A stretch of 64,000 nt of DNA. Source: Actinomyces sp. Marseille-P3109. GTDB taxonomy: Bacteria > Actinomycetota > Actinomycetes > Actinomycetales > Actinomycetaceae. The translations under genes and the position numbers were made by a program. Positions 3,696-48,934 of this stretch are shown piece by piece (position 1 is the first letter of the stretch; each line of letters begins with the position of its first letter). The stretch spans positions 515,941 through 579,940 of the forward strand of contig NZ_OOHN01000008.1 of NCBI RefSeq assembly GCF_900323545.1, written 5' to 3'. The notes beneath the pieces were generated by a model. It searched no databases, was not told where the DNA came from, and was given only the letters and a program-made list of their open reading frames with translations.

Positions 3696-4063
3696 GGGGA
3701 TGATCGGTTTCGACGACGGTCGTAGGTTCAGGAGAAGCGGGTCGAGGATGCGCAGTCATCTCGTCAACGCTCTGCGCGAACCAATAGGTGCCGATAACAC
3801 TCGCACCGACTTCGCCCTCGCCGCCTGAGCGAGCCTCGAAGTCCGTCAGCCCGGGGAGCGCTTCCGCCCCGGTTCCTGGCGTCATCTAGGGAGCCACTGC
3901 TGAGATCCCGTGTCGGTAGGGTTCTTGGGACTTTTCATCGACTGAGCCCGTCGGCGTCCTTGCTCGCGTGAGATGCCGGGGCTGAGAAAAACGCTAGCGA
4001 GCTGCACCCGGAGAAGTCCTGTTGTGCGCCCGTCGGACGGGGGTTCGATTCCCCCCATCTCCA
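3696..4063 (+). ncRNA. ssrA: Transfer-messenger RNA (tmRNA)
   Basis: The 5' end GGGGATGATCGGTTTCGACG is the tmRNA signature, and its first seven bases pair with CATCTCC at 4056-4062 to form the acceptor stem, followed by discriminator A. The T arm GGGGGTTCGATTCCCCC is at the 3' end. The tag frame starts at GCC 3790 and reads ADNTRTDFALAA, stopping at TGA 3826-3828. CCA is not encoded; CTT follows instead. A possible TGnTAGACT promoter element lies near 3627-3635. The 3' end is the insertion site of the element at 4061-13860, so the RNA now runs directly into foreign DNA. Its probable terminator lies 9.8 kb away at 13872. Confidence 0.96.
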
Positions 4064-5634
4064 CTTGAGGGGGAAGTGTCGAACTCGTGCTTTCGGGCAT
4101 ACATTCGCACTTCCTCCGCTCTGTCACCGCTGAGAAGGGCCTCTTCCAGGTCCTCGAGCTCGATGTGCTTCTCGCTGTCGTAGTAGTAGGACACGATGAT
4201 GATCTGGTTCGGCCCGACGAAGACCTTGTCGACGAAGTAGTCGAACAGCTGATCGCGTGTGTCGACGGTGTCGATCGTAGCTTCGGCGAACCTCTTGTAG
4301 AACGATCCGATTGAGACCTCGTCCTCGAAGAGGGTTGCCTTGACACGCTCGGTCTGGATCGCGGCGTCGAGTTCTTGTTTCTGGGCCTCCAGGGCGTTCA
4401 TGGCCTCAGCGGTCGACGCGTTGAAGATCCCCTGGGCGATCGCCTTGACGAAGTTGGCGAGCTTGGCCTCGATGTCCCTCCTGCGGGCCTCCAGCGCATT
4501 GAGGACCTCATCGCCGCGTTCGTGGGTCTTGCGGTAGTGGTCGGCTAGGTCGACAGCCAGCGAGGCCAGCATTTCAGGCTGATGGAGGAAGGACTCGATG
4601 ATCTCTATGACGCGGGTCTCGATCTCGTCCTTGCGCAACGTCTTGGCTGAGCACTTCTTCTTGCGCTGATTGAGGCAGTAGTAGTAGCGGTAGGTTCGGC
4701 CTGTCTTGGATGTGCCGCTCACGCCCTCCATCGATTCGCCGCACGTCAGACAGTACATGCGCCCCGTGAGCCAGTAGACGGGCGCTTCCTCGCCCTGGGC
4801 GGCCAGTTCGGCCTTTGTCTTGGCCCCGCAACGCTTGTTGATTGCGAACCTGCGCTGGACCTGCTCGAAGACGTCGTCGGCGACGAGGCGGGGCATGCCG
4901 TCCTCGATGACGTGCTCCCCGAAGGAGTACTCGCCGATGTAGGCGCGGTTCTTCAGAAGCTTGTTCAGGTTCTTGGGTGTGAACTGGTATCCACGGATCG
5001 TGCGGATGCCCTGGGCGTTCAGACGATCCGCGATCTTCTGCATTGAGACGCCGTGGGCGTAGTCGTCGAAGATCTGGGTGACGATGGGCGCGGTCTCCGG
5101 GTCCGCTACGTACCGTTTGTCGGAGCCCACGGAGAAGCCGAAGATCTTGTGGCCGTTGCTCAGCGCCCGCTCGGCGTTATACCGCTGGCCTCGTCGGATG
5201 TTGGCTGAGAGCTGGAGCGAGTAGTACTCGGCGAAGGCGTCCGCTACTCCCTCCATGAGAACCGAGTCGGGTGAGTCGGTGGGGGAGATTCCCTCGATGT
5301 AGTGCACACGGGCACCGGCCTTGCGGATTGTCTGCTTGACCAGGATCAGCTCGGTGCGTTTGCGTGCCAGACGGTCGTTCTTCCACACCGCGACGTAGGC
5401 GGGCTTGATCTTCGGGAGCTCGCGCAGCATGAGCTGGTAGCCGGGCCGGTCGGCGTTGGTGCCGGTCTTGGCTGCGTCTTCGTACTCGTTCACGACGACG
5501 AGACTCTGTGACTTCGCCCACTGGTGGACCATCTCGCGCTGCTGCTCGATAGAGGCCTCGTTCTGGGAAGAGGAGGAGTACCGGTAGTACGCAACGACCA
5601 TCTGATTGTCGTTGTACGGGGGCATAGGCCTCAC
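3994..5634 (-). CDS. Large serine recombinase (element integrase)
   Basis: A 546-residue integrase of the resolvase/recombinase family. The catalytic domain begins YYRYSSSSQNEASIEQQ with the active serine, followed by the DRLARKRTE helix, the Recombinase domain, a zinc ribbon (CLTCG and YYCLNQRKKKC) and a coiled coil (about residues 365-430). It starts with GTG after GAGGAGG. The frame does not end inside the element: residues 526-546 are encoded by the antisense strand of host ssrA. In the circular element the same frame would continue for 22 other residues after Gly525 and end VALSA. The integrated version is therefore a host-element fusion. Confidence 0.93.
   Translation of the reverse strand: MRPMPPYNDNQMVVAYYRYSSSSQNEASIEQQREMVHQWAKSQSLVVVNEYEDAAKTGTNADRPGYQLMLRELPKIKPAYVAVWKNDRLARKRTELILVKQTIRKAGARVHYIEGISPTDSPDSVLMEGVADAFAEYYSLQLSANIRRGQRYNAERALSNGHKIFGFSVGSDKRYVADPETAPIVTQIFDDYAHGVSMQKIADRLNAQGIRTIRGYQFTPKNLNKLLKNRAYIGEYSFGEHVIEDGMPRLVADDVFEQVQRRFAINKRCGAKTKAELAAQGEEAPVYWLTGRMYCLTCGESMEGVSGTSKTGRTYRYYYCLNQRKKKCSAKTLRKDEIETRVIEIIESFLHQPEMLASLAVDLADHYRKTHERGDEVLNALEARRRDIEAKLANFVKAIAQGIFNASTAEAMNALEAQKQELDAAIQTERVKATLFEDEVSIGSFYKRFAEATIDTVDTRDQLFDYFVDKVFVGPNQIIIVSYYYDSEKHIELEDLEEALLSGDRAEEVRMYARKHEFDTSPSSGDGGNRTPVRRAHNRTSPGAAR
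4061..4086. other. attL: ssrA-proximal junction with one attP arm
   Basis: The core CCAC is where the tmRNA acceptor stem ends; the element arm GTGTCGAACTC follows at 4076-4086. The arm is the inverted partner of the one at the right end. In the rebuilt attP the two arms are separated by 29 bases, with the shared core close to the centre. Confidence 0.75.
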
Positions 5635-8698: not shown

Positions 8699-9658
8699 CT
8701 ACCAGCGCGCGTACTCATCGGCGAGCCGGTGCGAGATCCACCAGACGAGCCAGGCGAAGGCCGCAACGCAGCTGAGCGTCCCCAGTGCGATCAGTGCCTT
8801 GGCCCACCATGCCTGAGCCGCTGCGAACGATGCCCACGCCCACCCCAGAAGGGGGCCCATGCCGAGCGCGTGGAAGGCCCCCATGGTCAGGCTTCCAACC
8901 ACCAGAAGCACTACAGCAAGTGGAAGTAGCGCAAGGCACATGCGTCCTGCGCTCACCCAAGTCACTCGGGCTGAGAGCCTGTCAATACGAAGCTCGGCGT
9001 CTCGCATCGCTTCCGTCAGTTCGTCGGTTTTGGTGGTTAACCGCTCAACCTCACCGACGGCACGAGAGATCTCCTTGGCTCCCAGAGATGACACACGTCC
9101 CTCAAGGCCGTCCAATCTGTGCTCGACACTCTGTAAAGGGCCCTCGACGGCCACAGCTAGTCGTCTATCGAGGACGTCAAGGCAATGCTGGGTGAGTTTG
9201 TCGGTATTGATGCGAACAGTGCCGCGTTGACGGACTTCCTTAGCGAGATGGTCACAGCTCGAAACCATCGTCTTGAGCTGGTTGTTGATCCTCTGTGTCA
9301 AGTTGTAGGCCTGAAAGTCTGCTGATCGTACGGTCGTACCGTCGGGGAGTGTCACGTGTCGTGATGCGGTGAGCGTTTCGGCGACGGCGGCGATCGTCTT
9401 CTCGATCTCGCTCAGCCTGTTCCGCATCTCGACGAACTCGGTCGAGTGCTGCTCGCCTGGATGCGAGATCAACAGGCTCTCCAACTGTGCTGCCGTGTTC
9501 TCGTCGATGCTCTTTATGTAGGCTGTCTGATCTGAGATGTGCTTTGTGAGCTTGGACAGATGCTGCTCTACGCTGTCGAGTCTCGAGATCAAGTCGGGCA
9601 AGATCTCCGTAGTTGTGTTCCGTTCGTCTTGCTCCTGTATCTGTTTGAGAATCCCCAT
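8699..9658 (-). CDS. Mobilization accessory protein: coiled coil with C-terminal membrane anchors (MobB-like)
   Basis: A 319-residue protein. Residues 1-240 are an almost unbroken coiled coil (SRLDSVEQHLSKLTKHISDQ and similar heptads). Two membrane segments follow (CLALLPLAVVLLVVGSLTMG and ALIALGTLSCVAAFAWLVWW). AAAGGAA lies eight bases before the ATG. The first 407 bases lie inside the relaxase gene in another frame, the arrangement known from mobA/mobB of ColE1-type plasmids, where MobB is a membrane-associated helper of the relaxase. The assignment as MobB-like rests on this arrangement and topology, not on sequence recognition. Confidence 0.75.
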   Translation of the reverse strand: MGILKQIQEQDERNTTTEILPDLISRLDSVEQHLSKLTKHISDQTAYIKSIDENTAAQLESLLISHPGEQHSTEFVEMRNRLSEIEKTIAAVAETLTASRHVTLPDGTTVRSADFQAYNLTQRINNQLKTMVSSCDHLAKEVRQRGTVRINTDKLTQHCLDVLDRRLAVAVEGPLQSVEHRLDGLEGRVSSLGAKEISRAVGEVERLTTKTDELTEAMRDAELRIDRLSARVTWVSAGRMCLALLPLAVVLLVVGSLTMGAFHALGMGPLLGWAWASFAAAQAWWAKALIALGTLSCVAAFAWLVWWISHRLADEYARW

Positions 9659-10502
9659 CGCTGTTTCCTTTCACGTGTGGGTTATGTTTCATCTTCTTGG
9701 CGTGGTACTCGAAGATCTCCTGAGCGCCTTCAGAGGTGAATTCTGGGGTAAGGGAGGAGGCCTTGCGTCTGCCTAACTTTCCGCTGTCTTTTCTGCGCAT
9801 CTTGTAGCTCCAGCCGTCTCGTTTGGTCACCGCAAGGCGGACGCCGTTATTTGCAAGAATGCTTTCGAAAGCTGCTTGGTCAACGCATCGAGGATCGGAG
9901 AGGGCGTCAGCGACGATGTCGCCTATCACCTGCTCGAACCCGCCTGCCTCAAAGTCCTCGCGACGCTGGTCCCAGTCGGGCTTAGGCCTACCTGGATCCG
10001 GTAACACCTGAAGGCCAAGCTCCTGCATGAGTTCATCGTTGAGTTGGCGTACCCCGTGTGCCCAGCTCGTGTTGCGATTTAGGCACCTTCCCGTCAGATT
10101 GTCGTGGTTAGCGACGACAATGTGAGCGTGAAGATGATGCCCCTTAGCGTCGCTATGCACAGCGATGAGATAGTCAGCACTGTGCATCCGGTTCGTGAGC
10201 ATCTCAGCGATGTCGCAGACCCGCTGGGCGTCTTCGGAACTGTGCACATCGAACTCGTCAGGGCTGAAGGCGAGGATGTAGGTATAGGCCTCCACCTTTC
10301 GACTGCAAGCGTCGTTGTGAGCCTGAGTCATTCGTACGAACTCACTCGGGTCAGTACTCCCGTTGGCCACGGATACGGAAAGCGCCGCCGCCCGGTGCTG
10401 CTTGGCAGCAGCACGCTGCCTGCCCTGCTTGCCTGACCCGTAGAGCACGTAGTGAACCGTGCTCGCGACACACCTCGAGCTCTTGACATTCACTATCGAC
10501 AT
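9252..10502 (-). CDS. Relaxase/mobilization protein (MobA/VirD2 type)
   Basis: A 416-residue relaxase from ATG 10502, one base after the mobC stop. The metal-binding motif is GHHLHAHIVVANHD (residues 121-134), typical of MOB-type relaxases that nick oriT and lead transfer of single-stranded DNA. A conserved Tyr near the start (VHYVLYG, residues 16-22) may be the nicking residue. The C-terminal third is basic and low complexity (DRVRRDAEQAERDREDDRRR) because it shares its DNA with the start of the next gene. The element has no coupling protein or secretion genes, so this would act with a conjugative helper. Confidence 0.88.
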   Translation of the reverse strand: MSIVNVKSSRCVASTVHYVLYGSGKQGRQRAAAKQHRAAALSVSVANGSTDPSEFVRMTQAHNDACSRKVEAYTYILAFSPDEFDVHSSEDAQRVCDIAEMLTNRMHSADYLIAVHSDAKGHHLHAHIVVANHDNLTGRCLNRNTSWAHGVRQLNDELMQELGLQVLPDPGRPKPDWDQRREDFEAGGFEQVIGDIVADALSDPRCVDQAAFESILANNGVRLAVTKRDGWSYKMRRKDSGKLGRRKASSLTPEFTSEGAQEIFEYHAKKMKHNPHVKGNSDGDSQTDTGARRTEHNYGDLARLDLETRQRRAASVQAHKAHLRSDSLHKEHRREHGSTVGEPVDLASRRAALDRVRRDAEQAERDREDDRRRRRNAHRITTRDTPRRYDRTISRLSGLQLDTEDQQPAQDDGFEL

Positions 10503-10503
10503 C

Positions 10504-11130
10504 TCACAGCACCGTCCTGTCACCAAGCGACCCACGCAGGGCGTTGACCGCATCCCGCAACTCACACAACAGATCTGCATCAACAACATCCCCTCGACGG
10601 AGCACCTGATTGAGGTTCACACCTACTCGCCGCAACTGCTCAACAGCTTCGGATACCTCGGGAGCGGGCCGAGGCGCCACAGCGTGAGCCGCAAGATCCC
10701 TGACCTCATGGCGTCGGGTATCCAGCGCATCGCGCAGGACCGCCCGTGCCCATGCGCTGGGCTTAACGCCCAGCCCACGAGCTCGGCGCCTGACGGCGTC
10801 GAGCTCAGAGAGGGAGACGCGCACAGCGATGCGAGCATCGAGCGTCTCCCTGTCCTCCACCACGCGCAGTGCTTCCCGATGACGCCGCGTGGTGGAGACA
10901 GAACCGGCACGGTGATCCTCCTTCTGAGCCGGTTCTGAAGAGAGGCCAGCAGGGGATTTGTCGAACAATCGGGCTCCGCCCTCGTTCCCCAAACCCCGCT
11001 GGCCCTCGTCCTCGCTCGCTTCGCTCCCTGTGGGCGAGGGGGACGCCACCTCTGCATGCCTGGCGCCCGGGGCGGGGACAGACATTGCAGTGTTTGCGAC
11101 GCCCAGCCGGTTCAGACATGTGTCACTCAT
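10504..11130 (-). CDS. mobC: MobC-like relaxosome protein
   Basis: A 208-residue protein from ATG 11130, whose start overlaps the upstream stop (ATGAGTGA), implying coupled translation. The N-terminal 100 residues are disordered (PSPTGSEASEDEGQRGLGNE). The C-terminal part has RVSLSELDAVRRRARGLGV, a ribbon-helix-helix-like segment, and SEAVEQLRRVGVNLNQVLR, the hallmark of the bacterial mobilization protein MobC family. MobC opens oriT DNA near the nick for the relaxase encoded immediately downstream. Confidence 0.85.
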   Translation of the reverse strand: MSDTCLNRLGVANTAMSVPAPGARHAEVASPSPTGSEASEDEGQRGLGNEGGARLFDKSPAGLSSEPAQKEDHRAGSVSTTRRHREALRVVEDRETLDARIAVRVSLSELDAVRRRARGLGVKPSAWARAVLRDALDTRRHEVRDLAAHAVAPRPAPEVSEAVEQLRRVGVNLNQVLRRGDVVDADLLCELRDAVNALRGSLGDRTVL

Positions 11131-11404
11131 ACCGGCCACCGCCCTCACTGGCAGACTCAGTCTGCTTCCGAGCACGCGAGGCAGCCGCACGCTCTGATCG
11201 CGCCTGGCGATCGGCCTCGCGCTGCCGATTGACGTGCTCGGCATACCGTTCGAAGCGCTCAGGGTCCTGAGAGCGCAGGAGGCGCGCGACCTCCTGGAGC
11301 AGGGTCTTCTCCTGCTTGTCGGCCTGCGCGCGTAGGCGCTTGAGACGCTCAGCGTGCTTGAGCTGCTCATTGGCGATGAGCAGCTCAAGATTGGTGGTGC
11401 TCAT
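11123..11404 (-). CDS. Small coiled-coil protein in the mobilization operon
   Basis: A 93-residue, highly charged protein (KHAERLKRLRAQADKQEKTL; Arg/Glu/Gln rich) that is a predicted helix throughout. GAAGGAAAA precedes the ATG. It lies between the replication initiator gene and mobC, and overlaps mobC by eight bases. No family recognised. It may be a replication or relaxosome accessory factor, inferred from position only. Confidence 0.7.
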   Translation of the reverse strand: MSTTNLELLIANEQLKHAERLKRLRAQADKQEKTLLQEVARLLRSQDPERFERYAEHVNRQREADRQARSERAAASRARKQTESASEGGGRYE

Positions 11405-13288: not shown

Positions 13289-13528
13289 TCATCGTGCCAC
13301 CGCCTTCGAGGCAGACGTCTCGACCCGGTTGGCGTCGAGCCAGGTTCGCAGGTCATCGAGACGGTAGAGCGTGCGCGAGTGGGGCGTACCGACGCGAACG
13401 AAGGCCGGGCCGATACCCTGTGTGCGCCAGTTAGAGAGTGTGCGCGGGCTGACACCGATGAGGGCTGCGGCCTCCGTGGCCGGGACCGAGAGTGTGGATA
13501 AATCGTTGATCGTCTGGGTAGTAGACAT
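13289..13528 (-). CDS. Excisionase-like MerR/AlpA-type DNA-binding protein
   Basis: A 79-residue helix-turn-helix protein: LSVPATEAAALIGVSPRTLSNW is the winged-helix start of the Xis/AlpA group, followed by RLDDLRTWLDANRV. Such proteins steer an integrase toward excision or control element genes. It sits near the right end of the element. An inverted repeat abuts the start codon at 13530-13548, and its inner arm GGGTGAAC may also serve as ribosome site, which would tie repression to translation. Direction factor function is inferred. Confidence 0.8.
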   Translation of the reverse strand: MSTTQTINDLSTLSVPATEAAALIGVSPRTLSNWRTQGIGPAFVRVGTPHSRTLYRLDDLRTWLDANRVETSASKAVAR

Positions 13529-13548: not shown

Positions 13549-13831
13549 CTCGCCAGAACGGTCTTACGTCTCCTATGCAACGGCCATATCGGTTCGTCGT
13601 GCTTCTGTGCCTGCCGGTCCGATGAGTTCCGCCCTGCGAGATTCGGCGGCAGCTGGGATTTCGTCGTACATCGGGTGACCTGACACCTTGGCGCTTCGTG
13701 ATAAATCTTGTGCGCCAATCCTACCAAGCATGTCAACTGCGGGTCAACTGAGTGGTGCTCCAGTCTGTTTCTGCCGCATCGCCACCTTACGCAGACAGCG
13801 CCACCAGCAGTAGGTGGTCTTGCGCCGGGAT

Positions 13832-13860
13832 GAGTTCGACACGTGCACCCTGAGCCCCAC
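13832..13860. other. attR: right junction with the other attP arm
   Basis: Arm GAGTTCGACAC (13832-13842) is followed by 14 bases and the core CCAC (13857-13860); host sequence AAATTCCC resumes at 13861. The remaining 280 bases between the excisionase gene and this arm hold no gene. In the circle they encode the alternative integrase C-terminus, in frame to a TAA near 13788. Confidence 0.75.
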
Positions 13861-13871
13861 AAATTCCCATG

Positions 13872-13916
13872 AGAGGTGCCCGCTGAATCGCCGGTTCAGC
13901 GGGCACCTCTGTTTTT
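13872..13916 (+). terminator. Intrinsic terminator, probably the original ssrA terminator
   Basis: AGAGGTGCCCGCTGAA (13872-13887) pairs perfectly with TTCAGCGGGCACCTCT (13895-13910), followed by GTTTTT. When attB is rebuilt the hairpin begins about a dozen bases after the tmRNA 3' end, the normal place for its terminator. The element has moved it 9.8 kb away. Confidence 0.85.
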
Positions 13917-14563: not shown

Positions 14564-15180
14564 GCTCGGTTCAGGTGAGGGCGGCCAGGAGTGGGGCGTA
14601 GTGGTCGGTGATGGCCTCGCGGTAGGCCTGGGTGTCTCCGGCGCGTGCGGCCTGGAGCATGGTCCGGTGAGCTCTGGCGGTTGTCAGCATGTCCTCGGGT
14701 CTGGGTGCGCCCAGGAGGGGGACGGTCAGGGTGTGGACGGCCCAGAAGGCCTCGGTGAGGTGCAAGAAGAGGTGGTTGTCCAAGGGCTCGAGCAGCCTGA
14801 TGTGGAAGCGGCGGTCCTGCTCGGTGAACAGCTCGCCTTTTTGGGCATGGACGTCCATCTGCGCCACGATCTGGTCGATTTCGGTGTCCTGGCGGTTCTT
14901 CCAGGTCTGGGTGACGGGTTCGGCCAGGGCCTTGTCGAGGGTGATGCGGACCTCGACGATGTCGCGTAGTCCGCGGTGGTCGTCTCCGGGGTTGAGTAGG
15001 CCTCTGAAGACGAGGGACTCGACCATGGGGCGCATGGAGACCTTGCCGACGAACATGCCGTGTCCGTGGCGGACCTCGACGATGTCGAGGGCGACCAGGG
15101 TGCGTACGGCCTCGCGCACGGAGGAGCGCGACACTCCCAGGTCCGAGCACAGCTGCGACTCCGTCGGCAACGCATCACCC
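14564..15180. repeat. 617-bp near-identical duplication, copy 1
   Basis: Matches 16571-17187 at an offset of 2007 bases; by eye I see only five differences, all in about 25 bases around 14685-14710. It covers the C-terminal 85% of the FadR-type gene. Similarity ends sharply inside the DNA-binding domain. Confidence 0.9.
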
Positions 15181-15290
15181 GGCTGAAGTCCCTTGGCAAG
15201 AATGTAGTTCTTGATCTCGGCGATCGCTGTGGAGGACTGAGTCATGGGGGTGGTGGTGAGGCCGGACATGACACCGCGGGACGTTTGCAT
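14571..15290 (-). CDS. GntR/FadR-family regulator, copy 1
   Basis: A 239-residue repressor: N-terminal winged helix (IAEIKNYILAKGLQPGDALP, then SQLCSDLGVSRSSVREAVRT) and C-terminal all-helical FCD ligand-binding domain with metal-type residues (HIRLLEPLDNHLF). FadR-group members such as NanR control sialic-acid genes. Residues from GDALP to the end match copy 2 at 16578 except two (TT versus SA). It is transcribed away from the hydrolase gene, with a RTCAGACRTC site between them. Starts at 15290, 15269 or 15245 are possible; I kept the longest. Ligand (Neu5Ac or ManNAc-6-P) is inferred from the neighbours. Confidence 0.88.
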   Translation of the reverse strand: MQTSRGVMSGLTTTPMTQSSTAIAEIKNYILAKGLQPGDALPTESQLCSDLGVSRSSVREAVRTLVALDIVEVRHGHGMFVGKVSMRPMVESLVFRGLLNPGDDHRGLRDIVEVRITLDKALAEPVTQTWKNRQDTEIDQIVAQMDVHAQKGELFTEQDRRFHIRLLEPLDNHLFLHLTEAFWAVHTLTVPLLGAPRPEDMLTTARAHRTMLQAARAGDTQAYREAITDHYAPLLAALT

Positions 15291-15408: not shown

Positions 15409-15493
15409 AGCCAGCTCCGGCAGCATGAATCCGTGTTTGTGAGTGATTATGAGCGATTTGCTCCCGTACCGCTCATGGTGTAACAGTTACAGC

Positions 15494-16585
15494 ATGCCCG
15501 ACGCGTATGAGGCGTTCCCCGCCCGTCCTCCCTACGACAGTGCCACGGCTGCTCTGCTCGAACGCATCGAACCGCTTGGCATCTTACGCGCCATGACGGT
15601 GCAGAACATTCCGAGCTGGCGCGCTCCCGCCGAGGAGGTCCGGGCGGAGTTCCTGAGACGGCATCCCGATGTCGTGGCGAGTGATGCCGATGTCATCCGT
15701 GGGGACGGAACAAGGCTTCCCGTGGCGATCGTTCGGACCTCACAGGATGCCGCCGGTGGTCGGCCCGGTCCGCTGTTCCTCTCGCTGCACGGGGGAGGAC
15801 TCATCATGGGGTGCCGTTTCAATGGACTGTTGACGGTCGTTCCGTGGCTGCGACGTTACGGGGGAGTCATTGTCAGTCCTGAGTACCGTCTGGCGCCGGA
15901 GAGTCCTGCTCCCGCCGGCGTTGAGGACTGCTACGCCACATTGTGCTGGGCGGTCGAGCACGCTGAGGACCTCGGCGCCGACCCGAACCGCGTCGTCGTC
16001 GTCGGACCGAGTGCCGGCGGGGGACTGAGCGCCGGCACACTGCTCATGGCTCGTGACAGGCGGGGGCCGACTGTCCTCGGCGGGCTGCTGGACTATCCCA
16101 TGCTGGATGACCGTACCGGCCTGCTGGGGTGGGAGGGCTCGGTCTCAGCGCGTCAGTATCCCGACGACGGGACCTGGCCGGCGGCGTACAACAACGTTGC
16201 CTGGGACGCGGCGCTGGGGGAGCGGCGCGGTACGGACCGGGTCACCCCTTACGAGGCCCCGGCCCGTGCCGGCTGGCTGGGTGGTCTGCCTCCGCTGTTC
16301 ATCTCGGTGGCATCTGCCGAGGTCTTCCGGGATGAGGACGTCGCCTTCGCCTCCAGAGTCTGGTGCGACGGCGGGGACGCCGAGTTGCACGTCTACCCCG
16401 GAGGCACCCACGCCATGGAGTTCGTCAATGCCCGCTGGTTGGCTCAAGGGCTCACTGCGGCACGCGACCTGTGGATGGAAAGGCTGCTGCGCCCTGAGGA
16501 CCCGCGGCTCAATGTGGTGGCCGTGGCGCAGGCCGGAACCTACTCGGCTCTCACGGAGGAGGTCGCTGCGGCTCGGTTCAGGTGA
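15494..16585 (+). CDS. Alpha/beta hydrolase of the hormone-sensitive lipase group
   Basis: A 363-residue esterase-like protein from ATG 15494 (an in-frame GTG lies at 15443). The oxyanion motif is LHGGGLIMG and the nucleophile is in VVVGPSAGGGLSAG. Asp and His of the triad fit DEDVAF and YPGGTHAMEF near the end. Location inside the sialic-acid cluster between two copies of the regulator suggests it may remove O-acetyl groups from sialic acids, as NanS-type esterases do, but the family is different and this is a guess. The last residues RFR and the stop codon lie in the 617-bp repeat, so the natural C-terminus may have been replaced. Confidence 0.85.
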   Translation: MPDAYEAFPARPPYDSATAALLERIEPLGILRAMTVQNIPSWRAPAEEVRAEFLRRHPDVVASDADVIRGDGTRLPVAIVRTSQDAAGGRPGPLFLSLHGGGLIMGCRFNGLLTVVPWLRRYGGVIVSPEYRLAPESPAPAGVEDCYATLCWAVEHAEDLGADPNRVVVVGPSAGGGLSAGTLLMARDRRGPTVLGGLLDYPMLDDRTGLLGWEGSVSARQYPDDGTWPAAYNNVAWDAALGERRGTDRVTPYEAPARAGWLGGLPPLFISVASAEVFRDEDVAFASRVWCDGGDAELHVYPGGTHAMEFVNARWLAQGLTAARDLWMERLLRPEDPRLNVVAVAQAGTYSALTEEVAAARFR

Positions 16586-17187
16586 GGGCGGCCAGGAGTG
16601 GGGCGTAGTGGTCGGTGATGGCCTCGCGGTAGGCCTGGGTGTCTCCGGCGCGTGCGGCCTGGAGCATGGTCCGGTGAGCTCTGGCGGCGCTGAGCATGTC
16701 CTCGGGTCTGGGGGCGCCCAGGAGGGGGACGGTCAGGGTGTGGACGGCCCAGAAGGCCTCGGTGAGGTGCAAGAAGAGGTGGTTGTCCAAGGGCTCGAGC
16801 AGCCTGATGTGGAAGCGGCGGTCCTGCTCGGTGAACAGCTCGCCTTTTTGGGCATGGACGTCCATCTGCGCCACGATCTGGTCGATTTCGGTGTCCTGGC
16901 GGTTCTTCCAGGTCTGGGTGACGGGTTCGGCCAGGGCCTTGTCGAGGGTGATGCGGACCTCGACGATGTCGCGTAGTCCGCGGTGGTCGTCTCCGGGGTT
17001 GAGTAGGCCTCTGAAGACGAGGGACTCGACCATGGGGCGCATGGAGACCTTGCCGACGAACATGCCGTGTCCGTGGCGGACCTCGACGATGTCGAGGGCG
17101 ACCAGGGTGCGTACGGCCTCGCGCACGGAGGAGCGCGACACTCCCAGGTCCGAGCACAGCTGCGACTCCGTCGGCAACGCATCACCC
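16571..17187. repeat. 617-bp near-identical duplication, copy 2
   Basis: Partner of 14564-15180. It begins 15 bases before the hydrolase stop codon, so hydrolase and regulator genes overlap tail to tail here. Confidence 0.9.
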
Positions 17188-17432
17188 ACCTGAAGGCCGG
17201 TTCTCAGGATGTAGTTCTTGATCGCGGTGATCGTGGTCTCAGCCTGGGTGGCCGGGGACGCCAGCAAGGTGGAGTAGGCGCCGTGGGGGATCACCGCCTC
17301 ACCCAGATCAAGTGTGATGCTCATCTCGTTTTTCGGTGAAGTGTCTGTGGCGGTGGGTGTGGATGATCTGCTCATGGTGCTGCTCTTCTCGGTGTCGGCC
17401 ATGCTTCTTGCCCTGTCAATCATTGTGATCAC
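16578..17432 (-). CDS. GntR/FadR-family regulator, copy 2
   Basis: A 284-residue protein when started at 17432; the start at 17403 (MADTEKSS) is also reasonable. Winged helix (ITAIKNYILRTGLQVGDALP, SRSSVREAVRT) and FCD domain as in copy 1. The N-terminal extension of about 75 residues is unique. It diverges from the transporter gene at 17594, with site B between them, so it is well placed to control uptake genes. Because its last 200 residues nearly equal copy 1, both should bind the same ligand and could form mixed dimers. NanR-like function is inferred. Confidence 0.88.
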   Translation of the reverse strand: MITMIDRARSMADTEKSSTMSRSSTPTATDTSPKNEMSITLDLGEAVIPHGAYSTLLASPATQAETTITAIKNYILRTGLQVGDALPTESQLCSDLGVSRSSVREAVRTLVALDIVEVRHGHGMFVGKVSMRPMVESLVFRGLLNPGDDHRGLRDIVEVRITLDKALAEPVTQTWKNRQDTEIDQIVAQMDVHAQKGELFTEQDRRFHIRLLEPLDNHLFLHLTEAFWAVHTLTVPLLGAPRPEDMLSAARAHRTMLQAARAGDTQAYREAITDHYAPLLAALT

Positions 17433-46578: not shown

Positions 46579-47459
46579 TCCGGTCAGTCCTACGTTGGCA
46601 ACGAGTCCCGTGTTGCCTCATGATTTCTGAGGGTTTCGGTTGTCATGGCATCTGGGATACCGGTGGGGTGGGGCGATCGGGTACTGGGATCGTTTGATCG
46701 CGTCGCCGAAGGGGTGCGCTTGGTTGCTGTGGTGGTGCTGGGCATGTACTGCATGAGGTCTGGGTGCTACTGACCGATAGATGGGTGTACTCCACGGGCG
46801 TCGGGGTCTCGTGTAGTACGGATAGCCCCTGGCCAGTGTCACCCGACCCTTGTGCAATGGCTGGCCTGAACAGGCCCCGACCGGAAGCGGTCTTGAGTGA
46901 GCGCCAGCAGGAGCCAGGCGGGCACCGCCGGGAGCCAGAAGAGAGGCCAAGGATGTCCGGATCGGTGACAAAGGCTCGGATCGTTCTCATCCACACGGAG
47001 CGCAACCGCATCATTCCAAGGTTCTCGTTCATGCGGTTCGGGGGCTGGGGAGTCCTTTGTCACCGATCTGGACACCAATGGGCCGACTCCCCTCGAAGAG
47101 TCCGGCGCAGCGGACCGACCAGGCCGCCCCGATCAGCACGCCGAGGTCTCGGTGACGACAAGGCCTACCTGGACCCCCTCCGGAGCGGGAGGCAGAGGTG
47201 GATCGTACTCATCGTTCCAATCCCGAGGGCTCACAGGACTCCGATCTGCCAGCACCCCGGCAGTGGAACCGAGCCTCAGTCAAGTCTCGTGCCCCCGGAC
47301 AGGCTGAAAGGTGGCAAAAAATACTTGCTCGCAGTTCTCCAGCAGTCTTGCCAGTATCACGGCGGCCCTCAGGCAGATAGCGGCTGGATGAGCAAACGGC
47401 GTTAGCCCCTCCACGCATCAGCCCTGCGGAGGCCCAACGACGTCGGGATCCGAGATCTG
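46579..47459. other. Gene-poor region
   Basis: About 880 bases with only short, overlapping, unconvincing frames (such as 46764-47405) that lack ribosome sites and have random-looking composition. It contains the 117-bp inverted-repeat element at 46956-47072. Possibly eroded genes; no family recognisable. Confidence 0.5.
46956..47072. repeat. MITE-like element with 19-bp terminal inverted repeats
   Basis: Left end TCCGGATCGGTGACAAAGG (46956-46974); right end, read as complement, TCCAGATCGGTGACAAAGG (47054-47072): 18 of 19 match. The 79-base interior has its own inverted pair AACCGCAT/ATGCGGTT. Too short for a protein. No clear target duplication. Could also be a structured RNA. Confidence 0.6.
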
Positions 47460-47541
47460 TACGCGAGAAGGGACTCGAACCCTCACGCCCGAAGGCACCA
47501 GGACCTAAACCTGGGGCGTCTACCAATTCCGCCACTCGCGC
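47460..47541 (-). tRNA. tRNA-Leu (anticodon UAG)
   Basis: Read on the minus strand: acceptor GCGCGAG pairs with CTCGCGT (one G-U), anticodon stem CCAGG/CCTGG with loop TTTAGGT, long variable arm GTGCCTTCGGGCGT and T arm GGTTCGAGTCC. The long variable arm and TAG anticodon make it Leu. CCA is not encoded. Confidence 0.95.
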
Positions 47542-47609
47542 TATGCCGTGCCCACTCTACCGACTTGAGCGCTGATAGCCGAATGCGGCGTCCTTGTCCG
47601 TCAGAGCTG

Positions 47610-48086
47610 TCAGTCCACGCCCAGCGCAGCTCGCAGCCGCTTGACGTGTCCCGTCGCCCGGACGTTGTACTGGGCCAGCGTCACGGTTCCGTCGGGAGCC
47701 ACCACCACGGTCGAGCGGATGACACCAGTGTAGACCTTGCCGTAGTTCTTCTTCTCTCCCCACACGCCCCAGGCATCCATGACGGAGTGGTCGGCGTCCG
47801 ACAGCAACGGGAAGGGCAGGTCGTGACGGTTGGAGAACTTGGCCTGCGCGGTCACGGAGTCGGGAGAGATGCCGACGACGGCGTAGCCGGCGGCCTTGAG
47901 CTCCTCCACGGAGTCGCGGAAGTCGCAGGCCTCCTTAGTGCAACCAGGTGTACAGGCCTTGGGATAGAAGTAGACGATGACGCCCTTGTCCGTGCTGGTG
48001 CACAGGTCGTGAAGAGTCACGGTGCGTCCGTCCTGGTCGGGCAGGGCGAACTCCGGGGCGCGGTCACCGGTGGTGAGCTGGGGCAT
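47610..48086 (-). CDS. bcp: Thiol peroxidase, Bcp/PrxQ family
   Basis: A 158-residue peroxiredoxin that reduces peroxides. YPKACTPGCTKEACDFRDS carries the peroxidatic Cys in PGCT; the second Cys in KEAC five residues on is the usual resolving one in PrxQ. The N-terminus GDRAPEFALPDQDGRTVTL is typical. GAGGAC precedes the ATG. Confidence 0.94.
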   Translation of the reverse strand: MPQLTTGDRAPEFALPDQDGRTVTLHDLCTSTDKGVIVYFYPKACTPGCTKEACDFRDSVEELKAAGYAVVGISPDSVTAQAKFSNRHDLPFPLLSDADHSVMDAWGVWGEKKNYGKVYTGVIRSTVVVAPDGTVTLAQYNVRATGHVKRLRAALGVD

Positions 48087-48233
48087 GGGTCCTCCTCGGG
48101 ATCCTGGGCGTATGCGCTCATCCTCGCATCGCCTCCGGTACCTGCGGCAGTGGATTCGGCGACTTACTTTCGTGATCTGGCGAACGTTGACCGCGACGGC
48201 AGCACGGTCCTCCTCTGTCGGGGCTGCCGCCGA

Positions 48234-48449
48234 TCAGGCAGCCCGGGGGATCGGCCGTCGTGATGCCCTCTGTGCCGCTTCCAGACGCTCCAGCGCGCGC
48301 TCGAGACGAGAGGGGGAGACTGCTGCTCCCAGAGAGGCGAGCTCGGCACGTGCGGCGGAGAGCTCGCGATCAGCCTTTTCGCGGGCCTCGGCACCGATGG
48401 CTGCGGGCTCGGTGCTCGGCGCGGTCGTGATGTGGATGATGTGTGTCAT
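48234..48449 (-). CDS. Small DUF3618-like protein
   Basis: 71 residues from ATG 48449. EAREKADRELSAARAELASL is close to the DUF3618 pattern of helical proteins; there is no membrane segment, which longer members have. AGGGAAT is a modest ribosome site. Function unknown. Confidence 0.6.
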   Translation of the reverse strand: MTHIIHITTAPSTEPAAIGAEAREKADRELSAARAELASLGAAVSPSRLERALERLEAAQRASRRPIPRAA

Positions 48450-48741
48450 ACGTATTCCCTCAACTTCCTTCGACGTCGTCGGCCCGTGTGGGCCGGGCAG
48501 CGGTGGACGACGCGGCAGGCGATTGCCTGTGAGTCGACGCACCGCATGAGAAGACTTCTGCCGCCGTGGCGGCCTCGTCGGGCCGCGGGCGGTACTCACG
48601 AAGAGGAGCGAAAACCTGTGAAAAACAGGATCCCGATCATCTCTCAGGCTCATGCCGGAGGTGGAGGCTGTCTGTGCCGCCAACGTGCTCCCGCCGCAGT
48701 GCCTCCGGGATCTTTCCGGAGTGTGCACCTGCTCCTCGTGG

Positions 48742-48814
<73 letters not shown>

Positions 48815-48861
48815 TCGGCCTCGCTGGCCGGTGGTTCCCGGCCCGTTGGGCTGGGATTCCG

Positions 48862-48934
<73 letters not shown>

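Follow-up and report, generated by a model that had tools for sequence, protein, structure and literature searches.

An integrase gene that reads across its own attP and exchanges its C-terminus upon integration into the 3' end of ssrA in Actinomyces

The element and its target gene

The window (the whole stretch of 64,000 nucleotides analysed here) carries the host tmRNA gene ssrA on the plus strand at 3696-4064 (ARAGORN tag ADNTRTDFALAA; Rfam RF00023, 152 bits over 3696-4066), and the 3' end of this gene is the insertion point of an element of approximately 9.8 kb that extends from a CCAC at 4061-4064 to a second CCAC at 13857-13860. At its left end, on the minus strand, is a large serine integrase gene (3994-5634), the integrated form of which encodes 546 residues from a GTG at 5634. 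The Resolvase N-terminal, Recombinase and zinc-ribbon domains of the protein (PF00239, PF07508 and PF13408) all scored above cut-off; NCBIfam gave no integrase match above its curated cut-off, and a phmmer search of solved structures matched only the catalytic domain.

Three additional genes of the element, all on the minus strand, encode a MobA/VirD2-like relaxase (9252-10589; PF03432, E 5e-14), a NikA-like mobilisation protein (10504-11388; PF21983, E 8e-7) and a small helix-turn-helix protein that adjoins the right end (13289-13528; PF12728, E 4e-9), a position that fits a candidate excisionase or directionality factor. The relaxase and the NikA-like protein were found in a Pfam scan of 11 element frames, a subset of the total, among which there were no secretion genes; nor were there phage genes among the element frames scanned. 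Because it encodes a serine integrase together with relaxase, NikA-like and helix-turn-helix proteins, the element looks like an integrative mobilisable element and not a phage.

Insertion has moved the original ssrA terminator (13872-13916, plus strand; -35.7 kcal/mol, z -6.8, with a T-run after it) 9.8 kb away from ssrA; in the genus mate G023 the same terminator stands directly after the gene. A strong hairpin lies directly inside the left end of the element (4069-4117, plus strand; -26.8 kcal/mol, z -3.7), overlapping the P' arm described below and the C-terminal codons of the integrase, and a hairpin of this kind was present at all 11 sites folded (the window and ten relatives, of which G817 is represented by a P' arm without the core). 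A T-run follows it in G905, in G817 and in the Faecalibacterium phage Lelie, and is absent in the window. The hairpin is a probable replacement terminator, embedded in integrase codons, for an RNA gene whose own terminator has been displaced.

Elsewhere in the window, two minus-strand frames (14571-15290 and 16578-17432) that flank an alpha/beta-hydrolase gene (15443-16585) have long identical stretches in common by eye, which suggests a recent duplication, and a minus-strand cluster at 47459-48934 holds a tRNA-Leu and two tRNA-Lys genes, the latter two with equal Rfam scores.

Crossover point and geometry of the att sites

The crossover was located from an empty site in G023 (locus L003), which reads ssrA-CCAC followed by AAATTCCC. 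There, ssrA ends in ...ATCTCCAC (also ...GATTCCCCCCATCTCCAC) and continues directly into AAATTCCCATGAGAGG and the ssrA terminator, both of which stand in the window just right of 13860, beyond the right end of the element. The shared core is therefore CCAC, at 4061-4064 in attL and at 13857-13860 in attR. On the minus strand the attL core provides the GG of the Gly525 codon of the integrase, and symmetry makes these the likely crossover bases. An alternative core, the TGAG common to 4066-4069 and 13851-13854, would lead to a different frame and was ruled out by the same empty site. An exact-repeat search for the far end of the element found no long direct repeat, in keeping with a serine integrase whose two sites have 4 bp in common.

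The arms of attP are perfect 11-bp inverted copies of one another, the P arm GAGTTCGACAC at 13832-13842 lying 14 nt to the left of the core and the P' arm GTGTCGAACTC at 4076-4086 lying 11 nt to its right. This spacing is nearly invariant: 14 nt in 10/10 attR sites and 11 nt in 12/13 attL sites compared. Within the attP arm lies a zinc-domain motif (GTTCGACAC, 13834-13842 in the window), matched in the target by the T-loop of ssrA, GTTCGATTC (4043-4051, plus strand). The distance from motif to core is 14 nt in 10/10 attP-type half-sites and 9 nt in 12/13 attB-type half-sites, a shift of 5 bp; the exception is G886, which has no such motif.

These features recall the A118/LI family of large serine integrases. 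In the available part of the published account (PMC3783163), attP half-sites of that family measure approximately 25 bp and carry a distal zinc-domain motif, and the motif of the Listeria LI integrase lies 5 bp nearer the core in attB than in attP, as the 14 and 9 nt do here; the element differs in its target, the T-loop end of ssrA or of tRNA-Ala, and that account makes no mention of an attP within the reading frame of the LI or A118 integrase. By analogy with that model, the T-loop GTTCGATTC seems to serve the integrase as its attB zinc-domain motif, and such a role would account for ssrA and tRNA-Ala as targets.

Joining the two ends of the element gives an expected attP junction on the integrase strand of ...GACACTTCCCCCTCAAGTGGGGCTCAGGGTGCACGTGTCGAACTC..., and the 51-bp attP in the circle is wholly coding, lying inside the integrase frame (residues EFDT...VEL).

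Two C-termini for one integrase

In the chromosome, the minus-strand integrase frame (3994-5634) enters the plus-strand tmRNA gene, and the protein reads ...SSG/DGGNRTPVRRAHNRTSPGAAR (the slash marks the crossover), the 21 residues after Gly525 being encoded by antisense ssrA. Read from the CCAC of the right end, the same frame gives the circle form, ...SSG/AQGARVELIPAQDHLLLVALSA and a stop, with 22 residues after the glycine; the two proteins comprise 546 and 547 residues, respectively, with the GTG at 5634 as the start of each. The coding sequence for the second tail remains in the chromosome as an orphan 3' end of the integrase gene at 13787-13858 (minus strand; tail GAQGARVELIPAQDHLLLVALSA and stop codon TAA), recognised from its translation and from codon constraint among relatives.

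The initial annotation of this DNA had proposed, from the letters alone, a frame that crosses attP, these same tail lengths and an antisense ssrA origin for the integrated tail. Translation of both ends confirms the crossing and the exchange of tails in this element, and the empty site in G023 places the crossover where the proposed tails implied it to be, with the frame staying open. None of the three Pfam domains extends past residue 344, and the exchange affects only the residues after Gly525. A structure prediction made from only two sequences was uninformative (mean pLDDT 43).

Related integrases also cross attP

The genus set comprises 49 genomes, all with a matching ssrA. Counting the window's own genome where it belongs to the set searched, matches to the integrase were present in four of these 49 (E <= 1e-30); in 12/213 genomes of the family and 5/396 sampled from the order (E <= 1e-40 for both); and in 2/60 and 1/47 genomes of two other families (E <= 1e-60). 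In the class sample only the window's own genome matched (1/394). Searches of the viral_contigs set by protein and by attR pattern found no relative. The phage and plasmid collections returned 26 and 4 records (E <= 1e-30), all of them distant relatives below 60% identity, and the plasmid collection gave no match to the circle-form tail.

Related integrases were surveyed for frames that cross attP, as had been suggested with the initial annotation. Six full-length integrases stand at 65% identity or above, namely that of the window and those of G036, G886, G905, G344 and G308 (66-93% identical to it, the 93% match being in a genus mate), and all six cross attP. A more distant full-length relative (50%) in G002 does not; it is situated in the interior of its element, at neither end. 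Among the 16 loci that we read, the frame passes through ...EF(D/N)xSP..G into host sequence in ten, entering antisense ssrA in eight, tRNA-Ala in one and, in the tenth, a site that lacks an intact RNA gene; at locus L053 it enters a circle-type tail, and the other five either are broken or partial or belong to another subfamily. Integrated tails that could be read to a stop have no common end.

A joined attP was found in G886 (locus L054, C1:1654500-1674400), where two integrase C-termini lie approximately 10 kb apart, one of them across the junction. At about C1:1660690-1660745, the frame of a 117-codon fragment reads EFDTSPWSG/DQGACVELLIMKDHLLFVA and a stop, passing through into DHLLFVA. 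The predicted kind of join thus exists in nature and in frame, in a fragment and not in an intact gene. The locus reads as a tandem or remnant of the element, at a site with no intact RNA gene nearby.

Conservation of the stranded right ends

We scanned genomes for the attR core and arm. This pattern occurred at 27 places in 22/213 genomes of the family (<=3 mismatches) and at 4 places in 4/396 genomes of the order sample (<=2 mismatches), one of which is the window again; the same pattern read backwards, as a control, matched nowhere in the genome rows of either scan (213 and 396 genomes). Tails were read at all 30 loci, and two of these (G008 and G013, with 3 mismatches each) were set aside as chance matches on account of an immediate stop in the tail frame. 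Of the 28 that remained, 21 stop after 20-29 residues, counting the shared glycine. The tail of the window ends in DHLLLVALSA, that of G036 in DHLLLVTIAA, and those of G851, G874, G880, G882 and G884 in DHLLLVAMAA; others end in DHLLLATLPAAA (G893), AHLVMMLLSA (G344), NHLVLTDRLLAA (G308), DHLLFVA (G886) and SHLLISFPLSPEV (G905). The tail of G019, DHLLLVWQEPQAA, follows an in-frame insertion of three codons.

For quantitative comparisons we used a main set of 15 distinct tails, selected objectively as those with no more than one mismatch to the attR pattern, and a wide set of all 26 distinct tails. The first 19 codons were free of stops in the integrase frame in 15/15 tails of the main set, as compared with 8/15 and 12/15 in the other two frames; the corresponding figures for the wide set were 25/26, 14/26 and 20/26.

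The DHLLLV block is also constrained at the level of codons. An initial test on 17 rows gave a ratio of 0.29; in these rows three Leu-type codons vary at positions 1 and 3, and their second position is invariant. That selection left out duplicates (G880 and G884), similar rows (G817c and G873), the frameshifted G888a and those in which the DHLLLV block was not clear (G083, G277, G819a-c and G844b). Because such a choice favours conservation, the test was repeated on the two sets defined above, and the result held with weaker ratios: pN/pS was 0.40 for the 15 tails (0/2000 column shuffles as low) and 0.56 for the 26 (1/2000), the shuffles being of a kind that keeps relatedness and is distinct from a phylogenetic test. 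For the six elements with intact integrases alone the test was non-significant (880/5000 shuffles as low).

Nine of the 15 distinct tails, and 9/26 in the wide set, end in Ala-Ala or Ser-Ala ([AS]A), although common descent of the sites means that these counts are not independent. Among the loci examined, such an end occurs in 6/440 open frames of at least 250 codons and in 192/10028 frames of 15-40 codons. The ends observed are LSA, IAA, MAA, AAA, LAA and QAA. They occur whether the tail has 23, 25 or 29 residues and whether the stop is TAA, TAG or TGA. For five of the nine (G893, G851, G874, G882 and G019), the stretch read contains no full-length cognate integrase. The initial annotation had noted only a faint likeness of the circle form to the -ALAA end of the tmRNA tag. 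Across relatives this likeness becomes stronger on the whole, but it is not uniform: of the six elements with intact integrases, four end in [AS]A, one in FVA and one in PEV. The accompanying statement that the integrated form lacks a tag-like end stands: none of the attL tails read to a stop ends in [AS]A. The attL forms end in host-encoded residues, and the putative tag is thus absent from the encoded integrated protein.

Apparent tail exchange in Faecalibacterium phages

Two pairs of Faecalibacterium phage integrases, approximately 31% identical to that of the window, point to a wider distribution of the exchange. Lelie and Toutatis (96.8% protein identity; L114/L115) and Pioen and Taranis (97.5% DNA identity; L117/L118) each diverge completely at one point: ...SSSGMRLV/HLAHQ...ARLWRTA in Lelie as against ...SSSGMRLV/RVARIELTAS in Toutatis, and ...DSST/NQEQ...NVTLT in Pioen as against ...DSST/KKALY... 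in Taranis (here the slash marks the divergence). Toutatis and Taranis are taken here to be prophage-form records, since in both the integrase stands at the very end of the record, in Toutatis beside a putative tRNA 3' end. On this basis the Faecalibacterium integrases appear to read across attP and to swap tails. Their phage-form tails end in RTA and TLT, which are not tag-like, and tail swapping is therefore probably the more widespread of the two features.

Comparison with known systems

The initial annotation had compared this arrangement with mycobacteriophages in which integration removes a degradation tag. Integration-dependent immunity is described, in the parts of these sources available, for mycobacteriophage clusters G, N and P, for Gordonia cluster CW and for Bifidobacterium Bb423phi2 (PMC9262239, PMC9934374, PMC6109161). 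There, as here, attP falls close to the 3' end of a protein-coding gene, whose last codons stay behind at attR upon integration. The free form there ends in an -AA tag resembling that of ssrA, to which the circle-form tail here may correspond, and the form encoded at attL is without it. The comparison is apt in this respect but not as to the gene, which is a repressor gene there and a serine integrase gene here. The integrases of those phages are tyrosine integrases, and although both repressor and integrase bear LAA-like tags, it is the repressor that is said to lose its tag on integration, the accessible text making no such statement of the integrase's own tag (PMC9262239). Since attP lies inside the integrase gene and not inside a repressor gene, we do not class the element as a member of these systems.

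Two other systems share single features with it, as far as the portions of the sources at hand describe them. In the archaeal suicidal (SSV-type) integrases (PMC8371274) the att site also lies in the integrase gene and integration alters that gene, but it splits it into inactive parts, whereas here the exchange is limited to the last ~22 codons and every recognised domain is left intact. In ICEKp1 (PMC13023037), int is likewise expressed differently according to the state of the element, by state-dependent promoter switching; what changes there is transcription, and here it is the protein C-terminus. Among open-access papers we found no account of integration exchanging the C-terminus of a serine integrase, a scope outside which subscription journals mostly fall and which leaves novelty unproven.

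A possible degron shed by integration

Because the peptide is under codon-level constraint, a degron that is removed by integration is a reasonable leading explanation for the circle-form tail. In our preferred reading, to which we give about an even chance, this C-terminus belongs to the element itself and acts as an ssrA-like degron recognised by proteases of the ClpXP type. The crossover, the two tails and the conservation of both frame and tail are shown by the sequences; the proteolysis itself, the difference in stability and the use made of it are matters that we infer. A precedent for integration stabilising a protein by removing an -AA tag is found in the immunity systems, to judge from the excerpts available (PMC9262239, PMC9934374).

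The putative mobilisable element of approximately 9.8 kb holds its whole attP in the last codons of its serine integrase gene and, in the circle, that gene encodes the element's own C-terminus, which is hydrophobic here and has LSA as its last residues. When the element recombines with ssrA (or tRNA-Ala) at the T-loop end, the gene is cut at the Gly525 codon, the end that encodes the proposed degron stays behind at attR, and the gene at attL acquires a tail encoded by the opposite strand of the host RNA gene. If the tail is such a degron, a short-lived integrase in the circle would make re-insertion slow and allow time for replication and transfer, and the integrase in the chromosome would be long-lived, with little activity in the absence of a directionality factor. 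A stable integrase would do little there because, in the part of the account available, serine integrases recombine attP with attB and the reverse reaction is said not to occur without a phage factor (PMC3783163). Such restraint would not be absolute, since phiC31 integrase is described as excising to some extent even without its directionality factor (PMC11784100, available in part).

DHLLLV lies upstream of the last residues, and the tail may have a role other than that of a degradation signal. It could be a working part of the enzyme, with DHLLLV aiding dimerisation, attP binding or contact with a partner in the attP x attB reaction and being dispensable or unwanted after integration, and with the [AS]A end secondary. 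Such a role would suit a constraint that, beyond the P arm, falls on the DHLLLV block and not on the last residues alone, and it would accommodate the tails without an AA end in G886, G905 and G817, as well as the Faecalibacterium integrases, which seem to swap tails and also have no AA end. We nevertheless consider it rather unlikely, as it leaves unexplained the [AS]A ends of 9/15 distinct tails of differing length; moreover, integrated forms with arbitrary tails must presumably still excise, and for this reason the tail would hardly be required for catalysis in general.

Alternatively, the gene may simply abut attP, with a stop that happens to fall past the crossover; constraints on the DNA (the arms and the hairpin) would then hold the region, and neither tail would matter. 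A run-on of ~20 codons is not improbable alone, tail codons 1-9 lie within attP and would be conserved anyway, and the left-end hairpin is found at every site folded; frame crossing also seems to recur in distant serine integrases, and G844a retains the frame despite a broken integrase. Against these points, codon-level constraint and frame retention reach past the P arm, and we know of no DNA site in the tail-coding region beyond it. G888a, with its broken integrase, shows a shifted frame, and [AS]A ends are enriched, and so we hold this second account to be distinctly unlikely. Finally, that the circle never forms or crosses over elsewhere, and that the predicted circle form does not exist, is very improbable given the empty site, the near-invariant att geometry, the joined attP of G886 and the recognisable catalytic and DNA-binding domains of the integrase, even though that joined attP belongs to an integrase fragment and the circle form of the window's element is known by prediction.

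Returning to the degron, we would put at slightly under an even chance the broader proposal that a family of serine integrases with a coding attP sheds its own degron by integrating. This would be a DNA-encoded, heritable stability switch: the integrase would be unstable in the circle, which would leave the element at liberty for replication and transfer, and stable in the chromosome, where it would await a directionality factor. The end segment would in addition serve as an attP half-site and as a replacement terminator. If so, the stability of the recombinase would directly reflect whether the DNA is a circle or part of the chromosome, a form of control for which no serine-integrase example emerged among the open-access papers searched. 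C-terminal sequences of the GGNRTPVRR type in integrases would be host-derived run-ons, and the circle form would be the native enzyme to clone, a point of relevance to recombinase mining.
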